The translations under genes and the position numbers were made by a program. 46,069 nt of DNA from an uncultured Bacteroidales bacterium (GTDB taxonomy: Bacteria; Bacteroidota; Bacteroidia; Bacteroidales; Paludibacteraceae): the NCBI GenBank assembly GCA_900319035.1, contig ONMU01000021.1:1-46069 (forward strand). The letters run 5' to 3'. Below the pieces are notes generated by a model. That model had not been told where the DNA came from and searched no databases. It was given only the letters and a program-made list of their open reading frames with translations. Positions 1 to 44,640 of this stretch are shown piece by piece; within the stretch, counting starts at the first letter, position 1, and each line of letters opens with the position of its first letter.

Positions 1-2468
1 GGGCTTGCCCATTGCTGACCATAGGCGTCGGCAACCCAGAAATAGGAGTTGACGTTCTTCCAACCGACGAGGTTGAAGACCTCGAACTGCAATGCCCACT
101 GTTTCACATGTTTGGCGGAGGGCTTGCGCATGAACTTCGCCGTTTGGGCATTGAAGACATATGTGGCTCCTAAGTCAATACGTTTATAGACCGGCATTCG
201 TCCCCAAGCTTGCTGGTTGCGCGGAACGTAGAACGGCTGTCCTTCGGCAAACTGCATCTTAAGGTGGAACTTGAGTTGCGGTAACTTAGGGATGTAGTCT
301 TGGAAGAGCATGGAGAAGTTCCACCGTTGCTCTGTTGGAGAGGGGATCCAATCAGATTTCAGATTGGAGATTTCAGAGTTCAGATTTCTCTGCCGTGCAG
401 TCATGGTGGAGAAAGAGATCCACGAGTCTGCTCCCGGAACCAGTTCGCCGTAGAGCTTGAGATCCAGTCCTGCAGCATAGCCCTTGGAGTCGTTCTGACC
501 GGAGTAACGAACGCGCACATTATCAACGGTATAGCTCTCCATTCGGTCGATGTGTTTATAGTAGGCTTCGGCGGTGAGTTTGAAGGGTCGTCCCCATGCG
601 CGGAAATAGTAGTCTCCGCCAAGTACCACATGCACGGAACGTTGCGCCTTGAGGTTTTTGTTGAGCAAGATACGGGTCACGCCGAGATCGTCTGTGATGG
701 TGTCACGCAGCTCTTTGTAGAACGGCGCTTGGTAGTAGAGACCTGTTGCCACACGGAAACAGAAATCGCGTTTCCAACCCGGTATCCATTCCAAGGAAGC
801 ACGGGGAGAAGGCAGCACTTCGTTGTTCCAGCTCCACCATTGGAGTCGTCCGCCGACGGTTAAGATCCACTGACCGCTGGTGGTGTTCCATTTATGCTCG
901 TTCTGCACATAGGCTTGCAGTCGTGCGGAGTGCATGTCACTGTTGCCTCGCAGGGCGTACCACAGCTCCATCGACTTGCTGTTGTCTGGCATGGAGTAAC
1001 CGGCACTGTCTCGCCATTCCCATTCGCTTATCTGGTCTTTGATGAGTTCGAACTGTCCGCTCACGCCCCATGTGAGGGTGTTGGAGCCATGTTTCCAGTT
1101 GCCGTTATGCGCGAGTGTGATGACGCTTGCCTGAAGGGTGTTACGCGCATGTTGGTGGAAGATACCGGTTCCGAGCACGGCTGTCTGTCCTTCCGAAGGG
1201 TCGATCTGCTCGGAGTGTACGTTACCTGCCGAGCCGCCGCCTGCAGGGGCATTGGAAAGCACGTATTCGCCGGTGATGTCGAAGTTCTCACGCTCGTTGG
1301 TATAGAAACCCGAGAGATCAAAACCTATCTCCACTTCCTTGCTTACTTTGCCTTTCGCGCTCAGGGCAGCGAAGGCGGTCAGGAACTTATCTTTCTCCTT
1401 GCCGTCATAGTAGATGGATAGGTTCTTGGCATCCTGACCTCCGAACGATTCCGAGAGGCTGTCGGGCGTGAAGCGGTAGTCGTTCTGGCTGATATTACCA
1501 AGGAATGACATCTCCCAAGGCGTGTTAATTTTTAATGTTGAATTTTTAATTTTCCAAGTGATGTACGTCTGGTAGTCGATATAAGTGGGCTGATAATTGC
1601 CGGCAGTAGAAAGTCCTCCGAGCATGTATTTGCTGGTCTTGTATCGGAAGCCGTGCATCATCGAGTACGTGCTGTCTCCATGACCGACATAGACGTTTGC
1701 GCCAAGGAGGCTTGCACTCAAGCTGGCTTCAAAAGCCTGCGGTTTTTTATAGCTGATGTCCAGCACAGAAGCCATCTTATCGCCGTACTGTGCCCCGAAA
1801 CCTCCTGCCGAGAAATGGACGTTCTCCACCATCTCGGGGTTCACGAAACTCAGTCCTTCCTGCTGTCCGCTGCGGATGAGCAGAGGACGGTGCACCTCAA
1901 TGCCGTTGACGTACACCGAGTTCTCGTCAAAAGAGCCGCCGCGTACGTTGTACTGGCTACTGAGTTCGTTGGTTTGGCTCACACCGGCAAAGGTGATAAG
2001 CAGGCTTTCTATTGATCCTCCGGTAGCATCCGGCATGACGCGTGTAGTGGAGGCATCAATGCGATCCATCGTACCCTTGGTATGCTTGATTCCGCGTATC
2101 TCTATCTCGCTGAGAACCTGTTCGTCCGTAAGCATCTGGACGTTGACATTCAGCACTTCGCGGAAGTCGATGATTCGTTGCTGCACGCTGGTGTAGCCTA
2201 TCATCGAGTAGATGAGTGTGATGGTGTCCGCTTCGTCTAAAACGAGTTCGTAGAAACCATTTTTGTTGGTTGACGTGCCGCCTAATAGCACCCTTTCTTC
2301 TCCCCCTTCAGAGGGCAGGGGGGCTCGCCATGCCGCTATGTTGACCAGCTCGATACCTATATTGTCCTGATCCACCACGTATCCGTACACACGGGCTGTA
2401 CGTGCGTAGCAAGAGAGGCTGCATGCGAAGAGCAGACAAAAGTTTACTATTTTTAAGATTTTACTCAT
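1..2468 (-). CDS. TonB-dependent outer-membrane receptor, 3' end outside window
   Basis: The reading frame opens at ATG 2468 and stays open to the window edge (about 822 codons). It starts with a signal peptide. A carboxypeptidase-regulatory-like beta domain follows (about residues 25-115, with GGTSTNKNGFYEL). Then comes a plug domain (about 130-230, with YNVRGGSFDENSVYVNG) and the start of the beta-barrel. Family knowledge: such receptors take up large substrates across the outer membrane using TonB energy. No SusD partner is visible, so the substrate is unknown. The frame holds three low-complexity insertions that look like intergenic repeats: about residues 47-58 (2293-2328), 304-313 (1528-1557) and 692-708 (345-392). 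The last reads [12 protein letters not shown], nearly the same peptide as the insertion in engB next door. Confidence 0.9.
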   Translation of the reverse strand, partial: MSKILKIVNFCLLFACSLSCYARTARVYGYVVDQDNIGIELVNIAAWRAPLPSEGGEERVLLGGTSTNKNGFYELVLDEADTITLIYSMIGYTSVQQRIIDFREVLNVNVQMLTDEQVLSEIEIRGIKHTKGTMDRIDASTTRVMPDATGGSIESLLITFAGVSQTNELSSQYNVRGGSFDENSVYVNGIEVHRPLLIRSGQQEGLSFVNPEMVENVHFSAGGFGAQYGDKMASVLDISYKKPQAFEASLSASLLGANVYVGHGDSTYSMMHGFRYKTSKYMLGGLSTAGNYQPTYIDYQTYITWKIKNSTLKINTPWEMSFLGNISQNDYRFTPDSLSESFGGQDAKNLSIYYDGKEKDKFLTAFAALSAKGKVSKEVEIGFDLSGFYTNERENFDITGEYVLSNAPAGGGSAGNVHSEQIDPSEGQTAVLGTGIFHQHARNTLQASVITLAHNGNWKHGSNTLTWGVSGQFELIKDQISEWEWRDSAGYSMPDNSKSMELWYALRGNSDMHSARLQAYVQNEHKWNTTSGQWILTVGGRLQWWSWNNEVLPSPRASLEWIPGWKRDFCFRVATGLYYQAPFYKELRDTITDDLGVTRILLNKNLKAQRSVHVVLGGDYYFRAWGRPFKLTAEAYYKHIDRMESYTVDNVRVRYSGQNDSKGYAAGLDLKLYGELVPGADSWISFSTMTARQRNLNSEISNLKSDWIPSPTEQRWNFSMLFQDYIPKLPQLKFHLKMQFAEGQPFYVPRNQQAWGRMPVYKRIDLGATYVFNAQTAKFMRKPSAKHVKQWALQFEVFNLVGWKNVNSYFWVADAYGQQWAS

Positions 2469-2546
2469 TCTGTGCGTGTGCTGTTAATTACGGAGTTTGG
2501 TCGGAGGCAAGTCGGAGTAATTACGGATGCAAAAAATGTACGATTT

Positions 2547-3227
2547 TTAAGATTGCACGCTTTCATTCAGTTCTTCTATGTATGCGGTCAGCTCTTCACC
2601 GCCAAGACCTGTCTCGGACGAGGTGACAAAGACCGGCGGCAGTTCTTCCCAGTCTTCTAAAAGGCGCGTTTGATAGGCTTCTACATTCTCTTTGAGACGC
2701 ATTCTGCCGAGTTTGTCGCCTTTGGTGAAGACGATGGCAAAAGGCACGCCGTTCTCGCCTAACCAGTTGATGAACTCCAAGTCTATTTTCTGCGGTTCAT
2801 GTCGGCAGTCGATGAGCACAAACAGACAAACTAACTGTTCGCGCATCAGACAATACCGCTCAATCATCCGTTTGAGTGCCTCACGTTGTTTCTGTCCTGC
2901 TTGCGCATATCCGTAACCGGGCAGATCCACAAGATGCCATTCTTGAGATTTCAGATTTGAGATTTCAGATTTCAGATTTGAGATTTCAGATTTCAGATTA
3001 TTTGTCTGATGTCTGACGTCTGAAGACTGAATTCTAAAATGGTTGATCAGCAGCGTCTTACCGGGTTTCTGGCTCGTCTTTGCCAACTTAGGGTCATGAC
3101 AAATCATGTTGATAAGACTGGACTTACCCACATTACTGCGTCCGATGAAAGCATATTCCGGCAGTTGACTTTGCGGACAGTCTTTCACATCCGGAGAGGA
3201 GATAATATATTGTGCTGATTTAATCAT
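2547..3227 (-). CDS. engB: Ribosome-biogenesis GTPase EngB/YihA with in-frame repeat insertion
   Basis: This is a TrmE-Era-EngA-EngB-Septin-like GTPase that acts in large-subunit assembly. Visible motifs are G1 GRSNVGKSS (residues 29-37), G2 PGKT (55-58), G3 DLPG (101-104) and G4 FTKGDK. I place the start at ATG 3227 (MIKSAQYI), because homologues begin with this motif. The upstream ATG at 3245 overlaps cstA and adds only repeat-like codons. Residues about 66-95, between the strands flanking G2 and G3, hold an extra ~30-residue stretch with NLKSEIS repeated. Family members normally have a tight hairpin there. The insertion is in frame and the catalytic motifs are intact, so the protein may still work. 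It follows cstA by 7 nt and is probably cotranscribed with it. Confidence 0.92.
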
Positions 3228-3234
3228 TTCACCT

Positions 3235-4737
3235 TCACTTTTCACTTTTCACCTTTCTTGCCCATACGCTGAATCCGACCAAACTGCCGAGTGTAACGAT
3301 ACCGGCTAAGAGATAGCAAACCCAATGCCATGCAAGATGGAAGCCCTCCGGGGCAATGAGAATATAACTGCTGCATACCATCGTCATGAACAGCGCAGGA
3401 ATGAGTGCTATCAGGTATCCGAAACGATAGGGGTTGTCATGGATATTCGCTTCATGCCGGTAGAGCCACACGGTGCCCGTCCAGAGCGTGAAGACCGCCA
3501 GCGTCTGGTTGGTCCATGCGAAATAGCGCCATACCACGTTGAAATCCACAAAAATCATTCCGAAGACGCAGAAGAAAAGCGGCAATGCAATCAGCAATCG
3601 CTTGCGCGACGGCTTCTGGTCCATACCCAGGTAGTCCGCTACGATGAGTCGCGCGGAACGGAGGGCTGTGTCTCCGCTGGTAATCGGCGCGGCTATGACA
3701 CCTATGATCGCCAAAATACCGCCTACGATGCCCAGCCAGGAACGACTCACTTTATCTATGACGAGCGCTGCGATATTCTCTCCCGGGTGCTCCGCCGCAA
3801 AAGCCTGCAGGCCGTCAATGCCATACAGACCCTTTTCCGGATCAGCGAAGAAAGTACCTGCGGCTGCTGCCCATATGAGCGCTAAGATGCCTTCAGCAAC
3901 CATCGCGCCGTAGAAGATCCAACGTCCCTGACGCTCGTTGGTCACACAACGCGCCATGATCGGACTTTGCGTGCCGTGAAAACCCGATATAGCACCGCAA
4001 GCAATAGAGACGAACATCATCGGGAAGAGCGGCAGACCATTCGTCTGTCTGTTCTGCAATCCGTCGAACACTTCCGGCATTTCGGCGCTATGCCATCCCA
4101 GCATCACTACCATGATACCGATGCCCATGAAAAGCAACATCGCGCCGAAAATAGGGTAGAAACGACCGATGAGTTTATCTACCGGCAGCACGGTTGCCAA
4201 CGCATAATAGCCGAAGATAATCAGTACCCACGAGATAGGAATAGTGGATAGGTGAAAGTGGATAGTGGAAAGGGGACAAAGACCTTGCAGTAACGTAGCA
4301 GGGCCGCTCAGGAAAGTAGTGGTGAGTAAGATCAGCAATACCAGACTCAGCGCACGCATAACCGTCTTCACGGCATGACCCATTTCATCGCCGATGATAT
4401 CCGGCAACGAATAACCTAACTTGCGGATAGAGAGCATGCCGCTTAAGTAGTCATGTACACCGCCGGCGAAGATCGTTCCGAAGACAATCCACAGGAAGGC
4501 GGCGGGACCGTAGAAAATACCCATAATTGCACCGAAGATAGGGCCAAGTCCGGCGATGTTCAGGAATTGTACAAGGAAGATGCGCCACGGGGCCATCGGT
4601 ACAAAATCCACACCGTCCGTCTTTGTCAATGCCGGAGTCTTACGATCCGGCTCTACTCCAAAAATCTTCTCCACCAATACGCCATAGGTAAAGAACCCGA
4701 CTACCAGCAGAATCAATGCAATAATAAAAGTGACCAT
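3235..4737 (-). CDS. cstA: Carbon-starvation protein CstA family transporter
   Basis: This 500-residue multi-span inner-membrane protein is of the short CstA form common in Bacteroidota. Characteristic stretches are [43 protein letters not shown] and [14 protein letters not shown]. CstA proteins import peptides or pyruvate; which one applies here cannot be told. Residues about 152-167 (4238-4282) contain [14 protein letters not shown] between two membrane helices. It is encoded by a repeated CACTATCCAC-type sequence absent from normal family members. The C-terminal KVKSEK is also encoded by repeat-like DNA shared with the start of engB. A Bacteroidota promoter lies 25-56 nt upstream. Confidence 0.92.
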
Positions 4738-4761
4738 AACAAGCCTAATTTAATTTGGCTG

Positions 4762-4793
4762 CAAAGGTACAAAAAAATTTTGACATATGCAAA
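4762..4793 (-). promoter_or_regulatory. Bacteroidota-type promoter for cstA-engB
   Basis: On the minus strand TTTG (4793-4790) and TACCTTTG (4769-4762) are separated by exactly 20 nt. This fits the -33/-7 consensus. It lies just upstream of the cstA start. Confidence 0.8.
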
Positions 4794-4995
4794 TAAATCA
4801 CCCTTTTTATTGATATTTATTTCCTCTCATCCCCTCATCCCCTCATCCACTATATGGACATTCGGATTCGAAAATTGTGAAATATGCGTATATGCTACCC
4901 ATAAGCGTCAAGGACGATTATGGCTTGTAGCATAACGCAGATGAGCAATAATCGACAGAGCGAAGCGGCGGAGAACCCAGACCGGTCTGCGGAGA
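4794..4995. other. Intergenic stretch with short tandem repeat, no gene seen
   Basis: No convincing gene is visible between the cstA promoter and the tRNA terminator. The stretch includes three 8-bp CTCATCCC units (4826-4849, the last imperfect). Confidence 0.5.
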
Positions 4996-5231: not shown

Positions 5232-5939
5232 TCATTTTTTTTGAAAAACGCGATAATTGTACCATTTTTGACCCTCAAAACGGAAAAATATGACATAACA
5301 GAGGAGTGTAATCAGAATTCCGACCAAGATGCCTCCGGCTACGTCTTCCGTGAAATGTTGGCTCAAATAAATGCGGCTATAACCTCCTACTGCGGCAGCG
5401 ATGAATAGCAGCACTTGGATTGCTACGCTGATAGATCGCTGCGCTGAGAGACCGTTGGCACTGTTAGACTGCTGCGCTGAGAGACTTTTAGTAGCGATGA
5501 TGCAAAGCACGAAAGCGAGAGCAAAGAAACTGGTGGTATGACCGGAGGGGAACGAGTAGTACTTACTCATTCGTACGCCATCTACCAGCGGGAGAGTGAT
5601 GTCCTGGAAGTTATTCTCAAACCATTTATAGGGTCGGTCGGTATCTACGAGGTACTTGAGTCCCTGCGTAGCCAAACCGGAGATGGATAGAGCAGCGGTT
5701 GCCAGAACACCGTCTCCTATGCGGCTGAAAATGAGCAGAAGCACGCACACTACGTATGGAAACCACTCCGCTACTTGCGTGTAGTACTTATAAAATATAT
5801 CACGCGCGTACGTGTGGCGGTCGCACAAGAGGAGATGTAGTTCGTTTTTAGGGATATACAAAAGGGCTAAGCCCAATACTACGACGAGTATCAGGCTTAG
5901 CGAAATGAAAACTGCATTTTGTTTGAAGAGTTGCTTCAT
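5232..5939 (-). CDS. PAP2-family membrane phosphatase
   Basis: This 235-residue membrane protein has all three PAP2 signature motifs: KYLVDTDRP, FPSGHTTSF with the catalytic-pocket His, and SRIYLSQHFTEDVAGG with the second His. About five or six membrane helices are visible. Members remove phosphate from lipids such as undecaprenyl pyrophosphate, lipid A or phosphatidic acid; the substrate cannot be told here. Residues about 149-170, in the loop before motif 3, hold the repetitive insertion SLSAQQSNSANGLSAQRS. It comes from a duplicated CTCTCAGCGCAGC sequence, while normal family members have a short loop. It lies 14 nt after the preceding secreted-protein gene and is likely cotranscribed. 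Confidence 0.9.
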   Translation of the reverse strand: MKQLFKQNAVFISLSLILVVVLGLALLYIPKNELHLLLCDRHTYARDIFYKYYTQVAEWFPYVVCVLLLIFSRIGDGVLATAALSISGLATQGLKYLVDTDRPYKWFENNFQDITLPLVDGVRMSKYYSFPSGHTTSFFALAFVLCIIATKSLSAQQSNSANGLSAQRSISVAIQVLLFIAAAVGGYSRIYLSQHFTEDVAGGILVGILITLLCYVIFFRFEGQKWYNYRVFQKK

Positions 5940-15774: not shown

Positions 15775-15800
15775 GGTAAGCAATTTTCAAATCTCAAATC

Positions 15801-16502
15801 TCAATTTCTTTTTGCTACCGCTAAAAGAATATTGAGTAGCACGTACCAAAGAATGCAGGCTGTTCCGCTGAAGAGAGCGAACTCAATATGTTTGGTGGTA
15901 ATCGCTTTTGCAACGCAGAAACCGATGAGAATAAGGCAGCCGATGAGGAAACAGATGATAATCAGTTTCTCTTTTTTGAACGACTTAAAGCTGAAGAACG
16001 GAATCTCAGCGTTCAGCAGCCAGCAGCTGACAAACGACAGACCTATCAACGTCCACGCAATCCAGTCGTACGCGATGATGGAGATAGGCATACTGCATAA
16101 ACCGCCCCAGAAAATAGCGTTTGCCGGTGTTGCCAAACCGATAAACGACTCGTGTTGGCGTTCATCGACATTGAATTTCGCCAGACGGAGAGCTGAGAAA
16201 GCCGCCATGATCAGTGCCAGACCTGCCCACCAACCGAGTATAGGTCTCAGATAGCAGAACAAAAGCATCGAAGGAGCCAAACCGAACGTGATATTATCTG
16301 CCAGCGAATCCAACTCTACGCCTATCGGGCTCGGGGCGTTCAACGCACGTGCGCTCAGACCATCGAAGAAATCGAAGAATGCGCCCGCTAAGATAAACAC
16401 AAACGCCCACGAAAAGGCATCTTGCGTAGCCAGAAAAACGGCTATACACCCACAGAGCAGGTTACAACTGGTGATTGTGTCCGGAATAATTCGTTTCGTC
16501 AT
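15801..16502 (-). CDS. pssA: CDP-diacylglycerol-serine O-phosphatidyltransferase
   Basis: This 233-residue integral membrane enzyme makes phosphatidylserine, the precursor of phosphatidylethanolamine. The CDP-alcohol phosphotransferase signature is complete: DG, then AR two residues later, then G (PIGVELDS) and two spaced Asp residues (ELDSLAD). About six to eight membrane helices follow. Length and motif position fit the bacterial PssA type of Bacteroidota. It lies 38 nt after the transporter gene and just before the secreted nuclease, on the same strand. Confidence 0.9.
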   Translation of the reverse strand: MTKRIIPDTITSCNLLCGCIAVFLATQDAFSWAFVFILAGAFFDFFDGLSARALNAPSPIGVELDSLADNITFGLAPSMLLFCYLRPILGWWAGLALIMAAFSALRLAKFNVDERQHESFIGLATPANAIFWGGLCSMPISIIAYDWIAWTLIGLSFVSCWLLNAEIPFFSFKSFKKEKLIIICFLIGCLILIGFCVAKAITTKHIEFALFSGTACILWYVLLNILLAVAKRN

Positions 16503-16540: not shown

Positions 16541-17920
16541 TTACTGGTTCTCTAATCTTTTCCACACAAAGTACGTTACCGCGAACGTGGTGATACTGAA
16601 CGCGTTAGCGATCCAGAAGAACGCCGAGTAACCTACTGATTCTTGAATGAAACCGGCTACAAATCCCGGGATCATCATACTCAATGCCATGAAAGCGGTG
16701 CAAATAGCGTAGTGTGCGGTCTTGTACTCGCCTTCCGCAAAATACATCATATACAGCATATATGCCGTAAAACCAAAGCCGTAACCGAACTGCTCAAAGC
16801 TGACGGCCGTTCCGATGATCCAGAGCGACTCCGGTTGCGCCATACTCAGGTAGCAATACACGAAACTGGGCAGCGTCAGAGCTGCTGCCATCAGCCAAAT
16901 AGAGCGTTTCAGACCTCGTCTGGAAATATAAATACCGCCTAAAATGCCACCGATAAGCAGACCTATTACGCCTAAAGTGCCGTACATAATTCCCACTATA
17001 TCAGTTCCTAACGCTAATCCACCTCCTACATGCAGGGTGTGATGAACGCTGAAGAGATCCATTCCGAAGAGGGAGAAAGTCGTCTCTCCTTGTCGCAGTT
17101 CTTCCACCGCGTGGTCAAGCAGGAACGGCTGACACAGCTTCACCAAGAAACCTTCGCTCAAACGGTAAAGCAGCATGAAAGCAATCGCCAAACCCACACC
17201 GGGCTTGGTAAAGAACGTTCCGAACGCTTTGCCTAACTCCTTCCAAACACCTTTTGCCTCTAACCTTTCGTCTTTCGCCTCTGTTTCCACTTTCGGCAAT
17301 GCAAAACAGTGGTAAATAGTGACGAGCAGCAAGATTATGCTTGTAGCGCTTAAGGTCACTTGCCATGACAGCGGAATATTGCCTGTCTTGTTCTCAATGT
17401 ATCCGGCGATATACACCAATACACCTTGTGAGAACACGGACGCGATGCGGTAGAACGTAGACCGAATACCCACAAAAGCTGCTTGGCTACGCTCGTCATG
17501 AGCAAGCATATAATAGCCGTCGGCTGCGATGTCATGCGTCGCAGAAGCAAAAGCAGCGATGATGAAGAAGATCAGACTCCACCTGAAAAGACCTACAGAA
17601 GTGGTCTTGGCGGCAATCTGTTCCGCTTCCGGAGAGGGTAGTGTGACGGTCAGTAAAATGCACAAAACGGTCAGCAGACCTTGCATCGACAAGATCCACC
17701 ATCTTTTTGTGCGAAAAATATCTACGAAAGGTCCCCAAAGACCTTTCAAAAACCAAGGAAAATAGAGCAATGTCGTGAAGAACGCCAACTGCCCGTTTGG
17801 CACTCCCATTTTAGCAAACAGCATCACTGAGATGCTGTTTACTAAGAAATAGGGGATACCTTCTGTGAAGTATAGGGTTGGTACCCATACCCATGGTGAT
17901 ATAGATTGATTCGTTTTCAA
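16541..17920 (-). CDS. AmpG-like MFS transporter
   Basis: The 459-residue protein is of the major facilitator superfamily with about 12 membrane helices. The N-terminal stretch VPTLYFTEGIPYFLVNSISVMLF and FLKGLWGPFVDIFRTKRWW resemble AmpG-like muropeptide permeases of Bacteroidota. The likely cargo is anhydro-muropeptides recycled from the wall, but this is inferred from family resemblance only. The central loop (about 210-222, 17256-17290) contains KVETEAKDERLEAKG. It is encoded by a repeat-like GAAAGACGAAAGG sequence and may be another in-frame insertion, though this loop is naturally variable. Confidence 0.8.
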   Translation of the reverse strand: MKTNQSISPWVWVPTLYFTEGIPYFLVNSISVMLFAKMGVPNGQLAFFTTLLYFPWFLKGLWGPFVDIFRTKRWWILSMQGLLTVLCILLTVTLPSPEAEQIAAKTTSVGLFRWSLIFFIIAAFASATHDIAADGYYMLAHDERSQAAFVGIRSTFYRIASVFSQGVLVYIAGYIENKTGNIPLSWQVTLSATSIILLLVTIYHCFALPKVETEAKDERLEAKGVWKELGKAFGTFFTKPGVGLAIAFMLLYRLSEGFLVKLCQPFLLDHAVEELRQGETTFSLFGMDLFSVHHTLHVGGGLALGTDIVGIMYGTLGVIGLLIGGILGGIYISRRGLKRSIWLMAAALTLPSFVYCYLSMAQPESLWIIGTAVSFEQFGYGFGFTAYMLYMMYFAEGEYKTAHYAICTAFMALSMMIPGFVAGFIQESVGYSAFFWIANAFSITTFAVTYFVWKRLENQ

Positions 17921-17981
17921 ATCTCAAATTTCAAATTTCAAATCTGAAATCTCACCTTATATAATAACGCGCGCGCACGTA

Positions 17982-24035: not shown

Positions 24036-27676
<3,641 letters not shown>

Positions 27677-28140: not shown

Positions 28141-28302
28141 ATGCGAAAATCATCTATACTATTGATCATCGGTTTGGTTATCTTGGCAGTAGGAGCTGCC
28201 TTGAACGTAGCTAAAATAGAACCGTGGGGAGATTACGTCCTTATCTCCGGAGCAGTCGTCGTCGTCATCCGTGGTTTCATTAGAAACCATGAGAGGGATT
28301 AA
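28141..28302 (+). CDS. Small two-helix membrane protein
   Basis: A 53-residue protein with two hydrophobic stretches (about 5-23 and 32-44) and a charged tail (RNHERD). It starts 16 nt after the FtsB-like gene and ends 20 nt before ruvC, so it is part of that operon. The pattern (WGDYVLISGAVVV) faintly resembles the membrane part of gliding protein GldL, but the similarity is too weak to name it. No known function. Confidence 0.6.
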   Translation: MRKSSILLIIGLVILAVGAALNVAKIEPWGDYVLISGAVVVVIRGFIRNHERD

Positions 28303-28322
28303 TTTTTAATTTTTAATTTTGA

Positions 28323-28955
28323 ATGATCGATTCGGTACGAAGCGAACATATCATCTTAGGAGTAGACCCGGGAACGTTGTTCATGGGTTACGCCTTGCTC
28401 AAGACCGTCGGGCAGAAGGTCGAGATCCTTGAGTTTGGTGCCTATGACGTGCATAAACTCGAAGGACAATATCCGCGTCTCCAAAAGGAGTTTTTCTTCT
28501 TGCAGGAGATTATCGATAAGTATCATCCTACCTGTTTGGCTATCGAGACGCAGTTCGTGGACAAGAACCCCCAGACGATGATCAAGATCGTTCATGCACA
28601 AGGCGTGGCGATCGCTGCAGCACTCTCCAAAGACGTGCCGATCTACGAGTATTCGCCGATGAAGATCAAGATGGCAATCACCGGCAACGGACACTCCACC
28701 AAACAGCAAGTGGCAGGCATGTTACAGCGTTTTCTGCATATCCCGGACGATGAGATGCCTAAGAAACTCGATGCTACCGATGCCCTCGGTATCGCCTACT
28801 GTCATTTCCTGCAATTAGGCTTGCCCGTCTCCGAAGGAGGTGCCAAAGACTGGACTACCTTTGCCAAGCGGAAAGGACTGACCGACAGCGGATTAACCGG
28901 TCCGGCTGCCAAACTCGCAGCAGTTCTGGCAACGGTAAATAAGAAAAAAAAGTAA
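28323..28955 (+). CDS. ruvC: Holliday junction resolvase RuvC
   Basis: RuvC cuts Holliday junctions in homologous recombination. The RNase-H-like fold has its acidic residues: Asp in ILGVDPGT, Glu in AIETQFVDKNPQT, and Asp in DATDALGIAYCH. The 210-residue length is normal for Bacteroidota, with a Lys-rich tail. It is the last gene of the FtsB-like operon. The start follows a repeat-rich AATTTTTAATTTTG spacer. Confidence 0.93.
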   Translation: MIDSVRSEHIILGVDPGTLFMGYALLKTVGQKVEILEFGAYDVHKLEGQYPRLQKEFFFLQEIIDKYHPTCLAIETQFVDKNPQTMIKIVHAQGVAIAAALSKDVPIYEYSPMKIKMAITGNGHSTKQQVAGMLQRFLHIPDDEMPKKLDATDALGIAYCHFLQLGLPVSEGGAKDWTTFAKRKGLTDSGLTGPAAKLAAVLATVNKKKK

Positions 28956-29053: not shown

Positions 29054-29091
29054 GTGGTTTAAATAGTTTAAACAAGTTAACTTATTCAACA

Positions 29092-29155
29092 ACGCATAAA
29101 CTGATAAACGCATAAACTGATAAACGCTTAAACTGATAAACGCTTAAACAAATAA
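29092..29155. repeat. Four 16-bp tandem units in ferredoxin leader
   Basis: ACGCATAAACTGATAA occurs twice, then ACGCTTAAACTGATAA, then ACGCTTAAACAAATAA, all in phase. There are no spacers, so this is not a CRISPR array. Confidence 0.85.
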
Positions 29156-29167
29156 ATAAATTATCTT

Positions 29168-30744: not shown

Positions 30745-30886
30745 ATCGGGATAGTATCGGGAGCGCCTCGAGAGCACCTCGAGATTATGTCGTATCCTAC
30801 CACACCCTATATATACGTAGTATATATCCTGTGATTTTAAAAACAGCCAATTTTTAATTCGTAATTTTTAATTTTTAATTTAATAA

Positions 30887-34365
<3,479 letters not shown>

Positions 34366-44420: not shown

Positions 44421-44470
44421 TTTAGATCAAGCTATGTCAATAACATTTAGATCAAGCTATGTCAATAACA
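44421..44470. repeat. Exact 25-bp tandem duplication at gene end
   Basis: TTTAGATCAAGCTATGTCAA and the next 5 nt occur twice (44421-44445 and 44446-44470). One copy codes for the end of the HTH protein (with its stop) and the other lies just past it. Confidence 0.9.
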
Positions 44471-44640
44471 TAATGTTCTGTAATTATTTCTACCACTTCC
44501 GGCGGCAGGATATGTTGCTGTTTCTTCAGTCCAAACGGCTTCAACCGTTTTCGCATATAAGGTGTCGCCAACCAACGCCTAAACGTCCGAGCACTCACAC
44601 CTGCTGCCTTCACCAGTTCTTTTTTAGTTAAACTTCTCAT
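44452..44640 (-). CDS. Small helix-turn-helix protein (DUF4248-like)
   Basis: The start at ATG 44640 gives MRSLTKKELVKAAGVSARTF, a 62-residue protein with an HTH (about 6-25) and a second helical stretch (LPPEVVEIITEHY). It resembles the DUF4248 family found with Bacteroidales phage and mobile modules, and is probably a DNA-binding switch. It begins 1 nt after the stop of the gene upstream (TGAAATG), so the two are coupled. Confidence 0.6.
   Translation of the reverse strand: MRSLTKKELVKAAGVSARTFRRWLATPYMRKRLKPFGLKKQQHILPPEVVEIITEHYVIDIA

Follow-up and report, generated by a model that had tools for sequence, protein, structure and literature searches.

Translated heptanucleotide repeat tracts, including an insertion in EngB, in a rumen Paludibacteraceae clade

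The GTPase EngB of an uncultured Bacteroidales bacterium carries an in-frame insertion that belongs to a large set of translated repeat tracts, most of them tandem heptanucleotides, in a clade of cow-rumen Paludibacteraceae. Here, we report the analysis of this insertion and of similar tracts in a 46,069-nucleotide stretch of DNA (the window; contig ONMU01000021.1, assembly GCA_900319035.1), in its genome (G000) and in related genomes. The tracts are probably expanded by slippage, dispersed by template switching, and kept only where frame, stop codons, and protein fold allow, a reading in which we infer the dispersal route and any function.

An initial annotation had placed the same repeat peptide in frame in EngB and in a TonB-dependent receptor and had noted further copies between genes. 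Translation confirmed one peptide family in frame in both proteins (receptor, 352-388), and the copies at 15787-15804 and 17915-17954 do lie outside the long open reading frames (ORFs) checked. Long ORFs in the window hold more in-frame tracts that the annotation had not listed (1525-1553, 2285-2327, 4238-4276, 5422-5485, and 25841-25868). The features are given below, L126 being the matching locus of sister genome G125.

6..2468, minus strand: TonB-dependent receptor gene with in-frame tracts, running off the window (Pfam Plug domain above cut-off; translation)
352..388, minus strand: receptor heptamer array of the EngB repeat family, in frame, outside the stretches that differ in L126
1525..1553, minus strand: receptor TTAATTT heptamer array (KIKNSTLKIN), in frame, outside the stretches that differ in L126
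2285..2327, minus strand: receptor GC-rich in-frame tract RAPLPSEGGEERVLL; L126 has GTACAAA heptamers instead
2550..3245, minus strand: engB (YihA/YsxC GTPase), carrier of the insertion (TIGR03598, 194.7 bits; cut-off, 124.45; alignment with relatives)
2940..3035, minus strand: whole EngB tract, replaced in L126 by TTAGTCG and CAATGAC/CAACGAC heptamers
2946..2999, minus strand: EngB heptamer array AGATTTC/AGATTTG (coding strand, CTGAAAT/CTCAAAT), encoding NLKSEIS × 2.6 (TRF; translation)
3003..3031, minus strand: second EngB heptamer array, TGTCTGA type, in frame (11-residue peptide), ahead of the NLKSEIS array in the protein
3234..3257, no strand assigned: TTCACTT heptamer array upstream of engB (tandem-repeat scan)
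4238..4276, minus strand: CstA degenerate heptamer tract, 14-residue reading, within a low-identity stretch of the 86% match to L126
5422..5485, minus strand: PAP2-family gene with a 16-nt repeat family (GACCGCTGCGCTGA type) in frame, read as SLSAQQSNSANGLSAQRSISVA
15787..15804, no strand assigned: copy of the EngB-family repeat, TCAAATC units
17915..17954, no strand assigned: copy of the EngB-family repeat, TCAAATC units
25841..25868, minus strand: NAD-dependent DNA ligase (LigA) heptamer tract, 10-residue reading, between the N-terminal and adenylation domains
28299..28324, no strand assigned: TTAATTT heptamer array, no frame open across it
30855..30881, no strand assigned: AATTTTT heptamer array, no long frame open across it

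The start of engB is probably the ATG near 3227. The main EngB array (54 nt) comprises 7.7 copies of a 7-nt unit; the 11-nt unit proposed initially was abandoned, as a period of 7 fits. The array also forms a perfect 21-nt super-unit in 2.6 copies (TRF) and, read from the minus strand, gives an in-frame 19-residue peptide. With a unit length not divisible by 3, an array is read in all three frames in turn and yields the same heptapeptide in any phase. Together, the two arrays lengthen the EngB loop from 5 to 32 residues. In an AlphaFold model (mean pLDDT, 85; pTM, 0.84; core confident), the insert sits between strands 67-75 and 100-107, with pLDDT below 50 at insert residues 79-97, and solved EngB chains align on both sides of it with 0 and 3 residues facing it (two alignments inspected). 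For EngB, the protein modeled, the insert is predicted to be a surface loop compatible with the fold. A coiled-coil role, considered from the heptad spacing of I and L in NLKSEIS, is unsupported, as the model is of low confidence in this region and forms a helix of only 4 residues; a strong hairpin in the array is likewise unsupported (DNA folding z, -0.84).

The receptor tract at 2285-2327 is a GC-rich inverted repeat and was rejected as a dispersed family, no second copy being found in ~498 kb of this genome (at most 6 errors). Other repeats in the window include a 16-nt tandem repeat of another period class, AACGCATAAACTGATA (29091-29156; 3.7 copies, 97% matches), a perfect 20-nt tandem duplication within overlapping long ORFs (32486-32525), and two copies of a perfect 25-nt direct repeat (44421-44471).

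With at most 2 mismatches, GATTTCAGATTTGAG has 10 matches in the window, some of them overlapping, against a mean of 0.19 and a maximum of 2 in 100 shuffles. The search for further genome copies that had been proposed with the annotation found them in number: a three-unit pattern matched 229 times (overlaps counted), and its reversed control matched 38 times. A lag scan of 398 kb, a sample picked around pattern matches, returned 117 period-7 arrays (1 in one Markov shuffle) and, at other periods, 39 arrays (period 21, coding and noncoding), 20 (period 8), 10 (period 9), 8 (period 11), and none at periods 2 to 6. In 100 kb taken from this genome without such selection, 9 period-7 arrays were present, in 3 of 5 stretches (control, 0). 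Shuffles, reversed control, and lag scan rule out a chance origin of the repeats. Many different units are present (AAATCTG, AAATCTC, AATAATT, AAAAATT, AATTCAG, and dozens more). The 398 kb also contain 14-mers such as AGCAGTACCTTTGC at 10 to 12 loci, which resemble the Bacteroidetes promoter element TAnnTTTG.

Heptamer arrays are mainly outside coding sequence: of 127, 59 are intergenic, 48 lie wholly in genes, and 20 sit at gene edges, in DNA of which 86% of bases are coding (gene calls outside named families follow rough codon scores). Among the host genes, prmC, coaE, ribBA, and lpxB reach the NCBIfam cut-off, trmN-like and tcdA/thiF-like genes fall below NCBIfam equivalog cut-offs and have the Pfam domains, and one gene encodes a DAHP synthase-chorismate mutase fusion. 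The ribBA array lies between the two domains of the protein, the fusion has one array mostly between domains and another inside the first domain, and the LpxB array is at the N-terminus. Placement on the fold covers EngB, PrmC, CoaE, TcdA-like, RibBA, the DAHP fusion, LigA, and LpxB, a minority of the 48. A GACCGCTNCGCTGA family with ~16-nt spacing also occurs in called genes (L086 1240-1298, 2405-2492, and 7155-7210; L090 6765-6819).

Every 21 nt of a pure array in the CTGAAAT orientation include one TGA. Five coding arrays have at least one G at the TSA site; in these, the in-frame site is C in 7 of 7 cases, and 18 of 19 sites in the other phases are G. When all coding arrays are taken together, phase 0 holds 21 C and 0 G at this site, and the other phases 32 C and 18 G. 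Base choice in coding copies avoids in-frame stops, an observation that is partly circular, as open ORFs are stop-free by definition. Outside coding sequence, 24 of 25 arrays with at least three sites are uniform (18 all G, 6 all C, 1 mixed); such uniformity is the picture of unselected arrays. The pure unit is open on at least one strand for 44 of 48 arrays in genes versus 44 of 59 between genes (Fisher P = 0.024). For 11 coding arrays of the 48, the consensus unit in pure form would be closed on the coding strand, and variant units keep the frame. Selection appears to act on frame and stops.

A 39-nt core, CATACGGCGAAGCAGATCGTTCGACCGGAGGGAGATAAG, recurs with at most 3 differences in 8 copies in 3 of 14 genomes (4 in G000, 3 in G125, 1 in G018), flanked by similar heptamers on both sides, mostly AAATCTG and elsewhere of AAATGTC or ATGGTAA types. 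Seven of the copies lie in same-strand ORFs (261 to 802 residues) of different proteins and in three frames, opposite-strand ORFs over the core (L315, L317) being excluded from this count; one is intergenic. All four frame-0 copies (HTAKQIVRPEGDK) have A at position 37, where T would make TAG, and both frame-1 copies, one at an uncertain N-terminus (L314), have T, where A would make TAA; the frame-2 copy is open with either base. In a DUF4857 gene, G125 has the cassette and G000 has plain heptamers between the same protein flanks. A hairpin in the core is unsupported (DNA folding z, -1.94). A related core, AATAATCGTTCGAGCGAAGCGAGATAAGA, with AATTCTG- or AAATCTG-like heptamers on at least one side, was seen at L033 4733, L034 6723, L038 9673, and L043 9798, outside called genes in all four cases.

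L126 matches window positions 6-3227 with 94% identity over 3.2 kb, and identity is under 60% in only two stretches, namely the tract in EngB and that in the receptor at 2285-2327, both of which hold unrelated heptamers in the sister and are still in frame. Two further regions of the G000/G125 pair were compared (BLAST, 93 to 95%), bringing the DNA compared to ~22 kb. Across the three regions, 10 low-identity stretches lie wholly in genes, and 9 of them, judged by eye, consist of repeats in one or both genomes, a count that includes two only loosely repetitive stretches (L093 3674-3733 and 4981-5009) and omits the CstA 86% match (three low-identity stretches) as well as gene-edge and intergenic stretches. 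One of the nine differs in copy number (L033 6990-7033), and the tenth is plain substitution. Changes in copy number between the sisters include steps of 21 nt and 24 nt. Several coding arrays are the same in both sisters; five coding heptamer arrays of the two further regions, as well as those of the receptor (352-388 and 1525-1553), fall outside the low-identity stretches. The AACGACC pattern has 141 matches in G125 and 24 in G000 (controls, 0), and AGATTTS has 60 in G125 (control, 6) and 101 in G000 (control, 10). L126 1-1666 matches window 3227-4883, and this CstA side is 86% identical where the engB side is 94%; the gap perhaps reflects recombination.

Alignment of EngB with relatives, also proposed initially, found the insert absent or replaced in them. 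Outside the clade, the loop has 5 to 6 residues between two strands and is longer in 0 of 32 readable loci (of 34; L184 and L188, which did not fit the loop pattern, were left out). In rumen Paludibacteraceae, it exceeds 6 residues in 32 of 46 loci and reaches up to 29, that of the window having 32, and the enlarged loops comprise 30 distinct peptides. Loops clearly derived from heptamers include SVSNQQSAISNQK and that of L126; KMVNGKMVN comes from mixed 7- and 8-nt units, and still others are GC-rich or without a clear repeat. At the PrmC site, G000, G001, G015, and G003/G006 (those two identical) have heptamers, G018 repeats a unit of 8 nt, and G022 shows a GC-rich inverted repeat. The loop is about as long in most of the other species aligned, where it is free of repeats, and a tract may thus replace sequence instead of adding to it. 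Heptamers are also clear in G000 in CoaE and in the TcdA-like protein, in each case at a position of variable length, and the PrmC site is likewise length-variable.

Near engB, heptamer arrays are ~12 times more frequent in rumen Paludibacteraceae than in other Bacteroidales (50 period-7 arrays in 288 kb, 24 of 46 loci, versus 3, one of them a run of N, in 219 kb, 3 of 34 loci). The contrast is weak in random 20-kb stretches, with 4 arrays in 2 of 8 stretches of the genus versus 2 in 1 of 7 of other families. Words of 14 nt common to at least 3 loci make up 0.65% of the genus set versus 0.03% of the others. The AGATTTS pattern occurs in 46 of 101 genus genomes, that of the window included, often in few copies, and several other genus genomes match the reversed control instead, i.e., other heptamers. 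Unit sharing within versus between the genomes of relatives was not significant (8 of 59 pairs with one mismatch, 0 of 59 exact; 86 of 1,000 permutations as high), arrays of identical letters in one genome being counted once. Dominance of one unit in each relative was rejected as not significant (permutation test).

In the reading we favor, replication slippage in 7-nt steps would give new units, and short-homology template switching or gene conversion would copy tracts and whole cassettes to new sites. Existing arrays would act as landing pads, as suggested by a core flanked by similar heptamers whose type differs between loci. Purifying selection would discard outcomes that shift the frame, make stops, or hit the folded core, and the survivors would be nearly neutral, fast-changing filler of tolerant places. 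No copying intermediate or enzyme was seen in the genomes compared. The weak contrast in random stretches and the repeat-free PrmC loops lower our confidence in slippage with copying and raise it in local slippage, and a local origin is favored for many arrays because unit sharing within genomes is not significantly above that between genomes. Local replication slippage as the sole process, each array growing from a local seed without copying between sites, would also suit the dominance of period 7, the 21-nt and 24-nt copy-number differences between sisters, the diversity of units within genomes, and the nonsignificant same-genome sharing. We nevertheless hold it unlikely, since 8 sites share a heptamer-embedded 39-nt core, seven of them within ORFs for different proteins, orthologous tracts are exchanged for another family and not merely lengthened, and sisters amplify different heptamers. 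A tentative extension of slippage with copying, less likely than not, is that the arrays form a genome-wide exchange system, in which three-frame cassettes are copied from locus to locus and overwrite tracts from a species-specific pool; if so, loops and linkers of housekeeping proteins would be continually rewritten from a shared repeat pool.

Movement of a palindromic or MITE-like element through a transposase, the mechanism put forward for Rickettsia palindromic elements, would explain one cassette standing in frame in unrelated genes and the GC-rich inverted repeats among the inserts (2285-2327; the G022 PrmC site). We consider it improbable, as the EngB array and the core are weakly or not self-complementary, array length varies, and no target-site duplication caught the eye at the swapped sister sites inspected; the same sites, none of them a clean empty one, showed no terminal inverted repeats by eye either. 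That the tracts are adaptive, each selected in its host protein as a linker with a function, a coiled coil, or a tuning module, is very doubtful: NLKSEIS puts I and L in heptad (a/d-like) spacing, and frame and stops appear selected, but the peptide is swapped wholesale between sisters, the loop takes 30 distinct peptides, other relatives have a short loop, and the model offers low confidence and only a 4-residue helix. An assembly or binning artifact, which the initial annotation had named as one of its possible refutations, has a negligible chance of being the cause. The draft genomes are fragmented (97 contigs in G000) and repeats are open to misassembly, but separately assembled genomes of many species have different in-frame inserts in the same loop, and a 54-nt array should be short enough for single reads.

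Rickettsia palindromic elements, as described in PMC10969869, are ~150 bp long, form ten families, and stand in frame in unrelated genes at sites predicted to be compatible with the fold. The likeness to them noted initially is borne out in the result (dispersed repeats, in frame, in genes for unrelated proteins) and fails for the anatomy, which here is tandem with folding z of -0.84 and -1.94. The present tracts are tandem 7-mers with optional cores and many units, swapped between sisters in a Bacteroidales clade. Membership in the Rickettsia family is not supported, because diverse units are swapped between sister genomes and because the EngB array and the core lack the palindromic stable hairpin.

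The cyanobacterial STRR are heptanucleotide simple-sequence repeats of prokaryotes. Like such repeats, the arrays are 7-nt tandem units beyond chance, mostly intergenic, and in many copies. The TAACTGA repeats are tandem 7-nt repeats, mostly intergenic and many per genome, which also occur in five Bacteroidetes; few are in ORFs, mostly near protein ends, and forward repeats stop all frames (PMC4679880). Unlike those repeats, which have one motif with related heptamers rare, the present arrays have many units per genome, and dozens are inside genes, conserved enzymes included. Borg tandem repeats are fast-evolving and found in and between genes; those in genes lead to disordered regions and have units whose length is a multiple of three, almost without exception perfect and nearly all unique (PMC9879509). 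The present repeats are similarly fast-changing within and between genes, but with a 7-nt unit (a 21-nt super-period also occurs), imperfect, recurring, and in bacterial chromosomes. PARCEL is a 25-residue palindromic amphipathic motif in ORFs without assigned function, many of which carry membrane-targeting sequences (PMC2996958); repeat coding sequences are dispersed within genomes in both cases, but here their sites include loops of housekeeping enzymes. According to one survey, short tandem repeats are dense in Bacteroidota, coding sequence included (PMC12699852). Among the literature matches listed, which lay mostly outside subscription journals and preprints, no paper describes these in-frame heptamer tracts.

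The findings suggest that in uncultured rumen bacteria many genes turn repetitive DNA into protein sequence, at sites that evolve much more rapidly than the remainder of the gene. Such sites, EngB included, are natural experiments on the acceptance of foreign loops by proteins, and they make the origin and spread of heptanucleotide repeats testable. Loop differences between such species may reflect repeat turnover and not adaptation.
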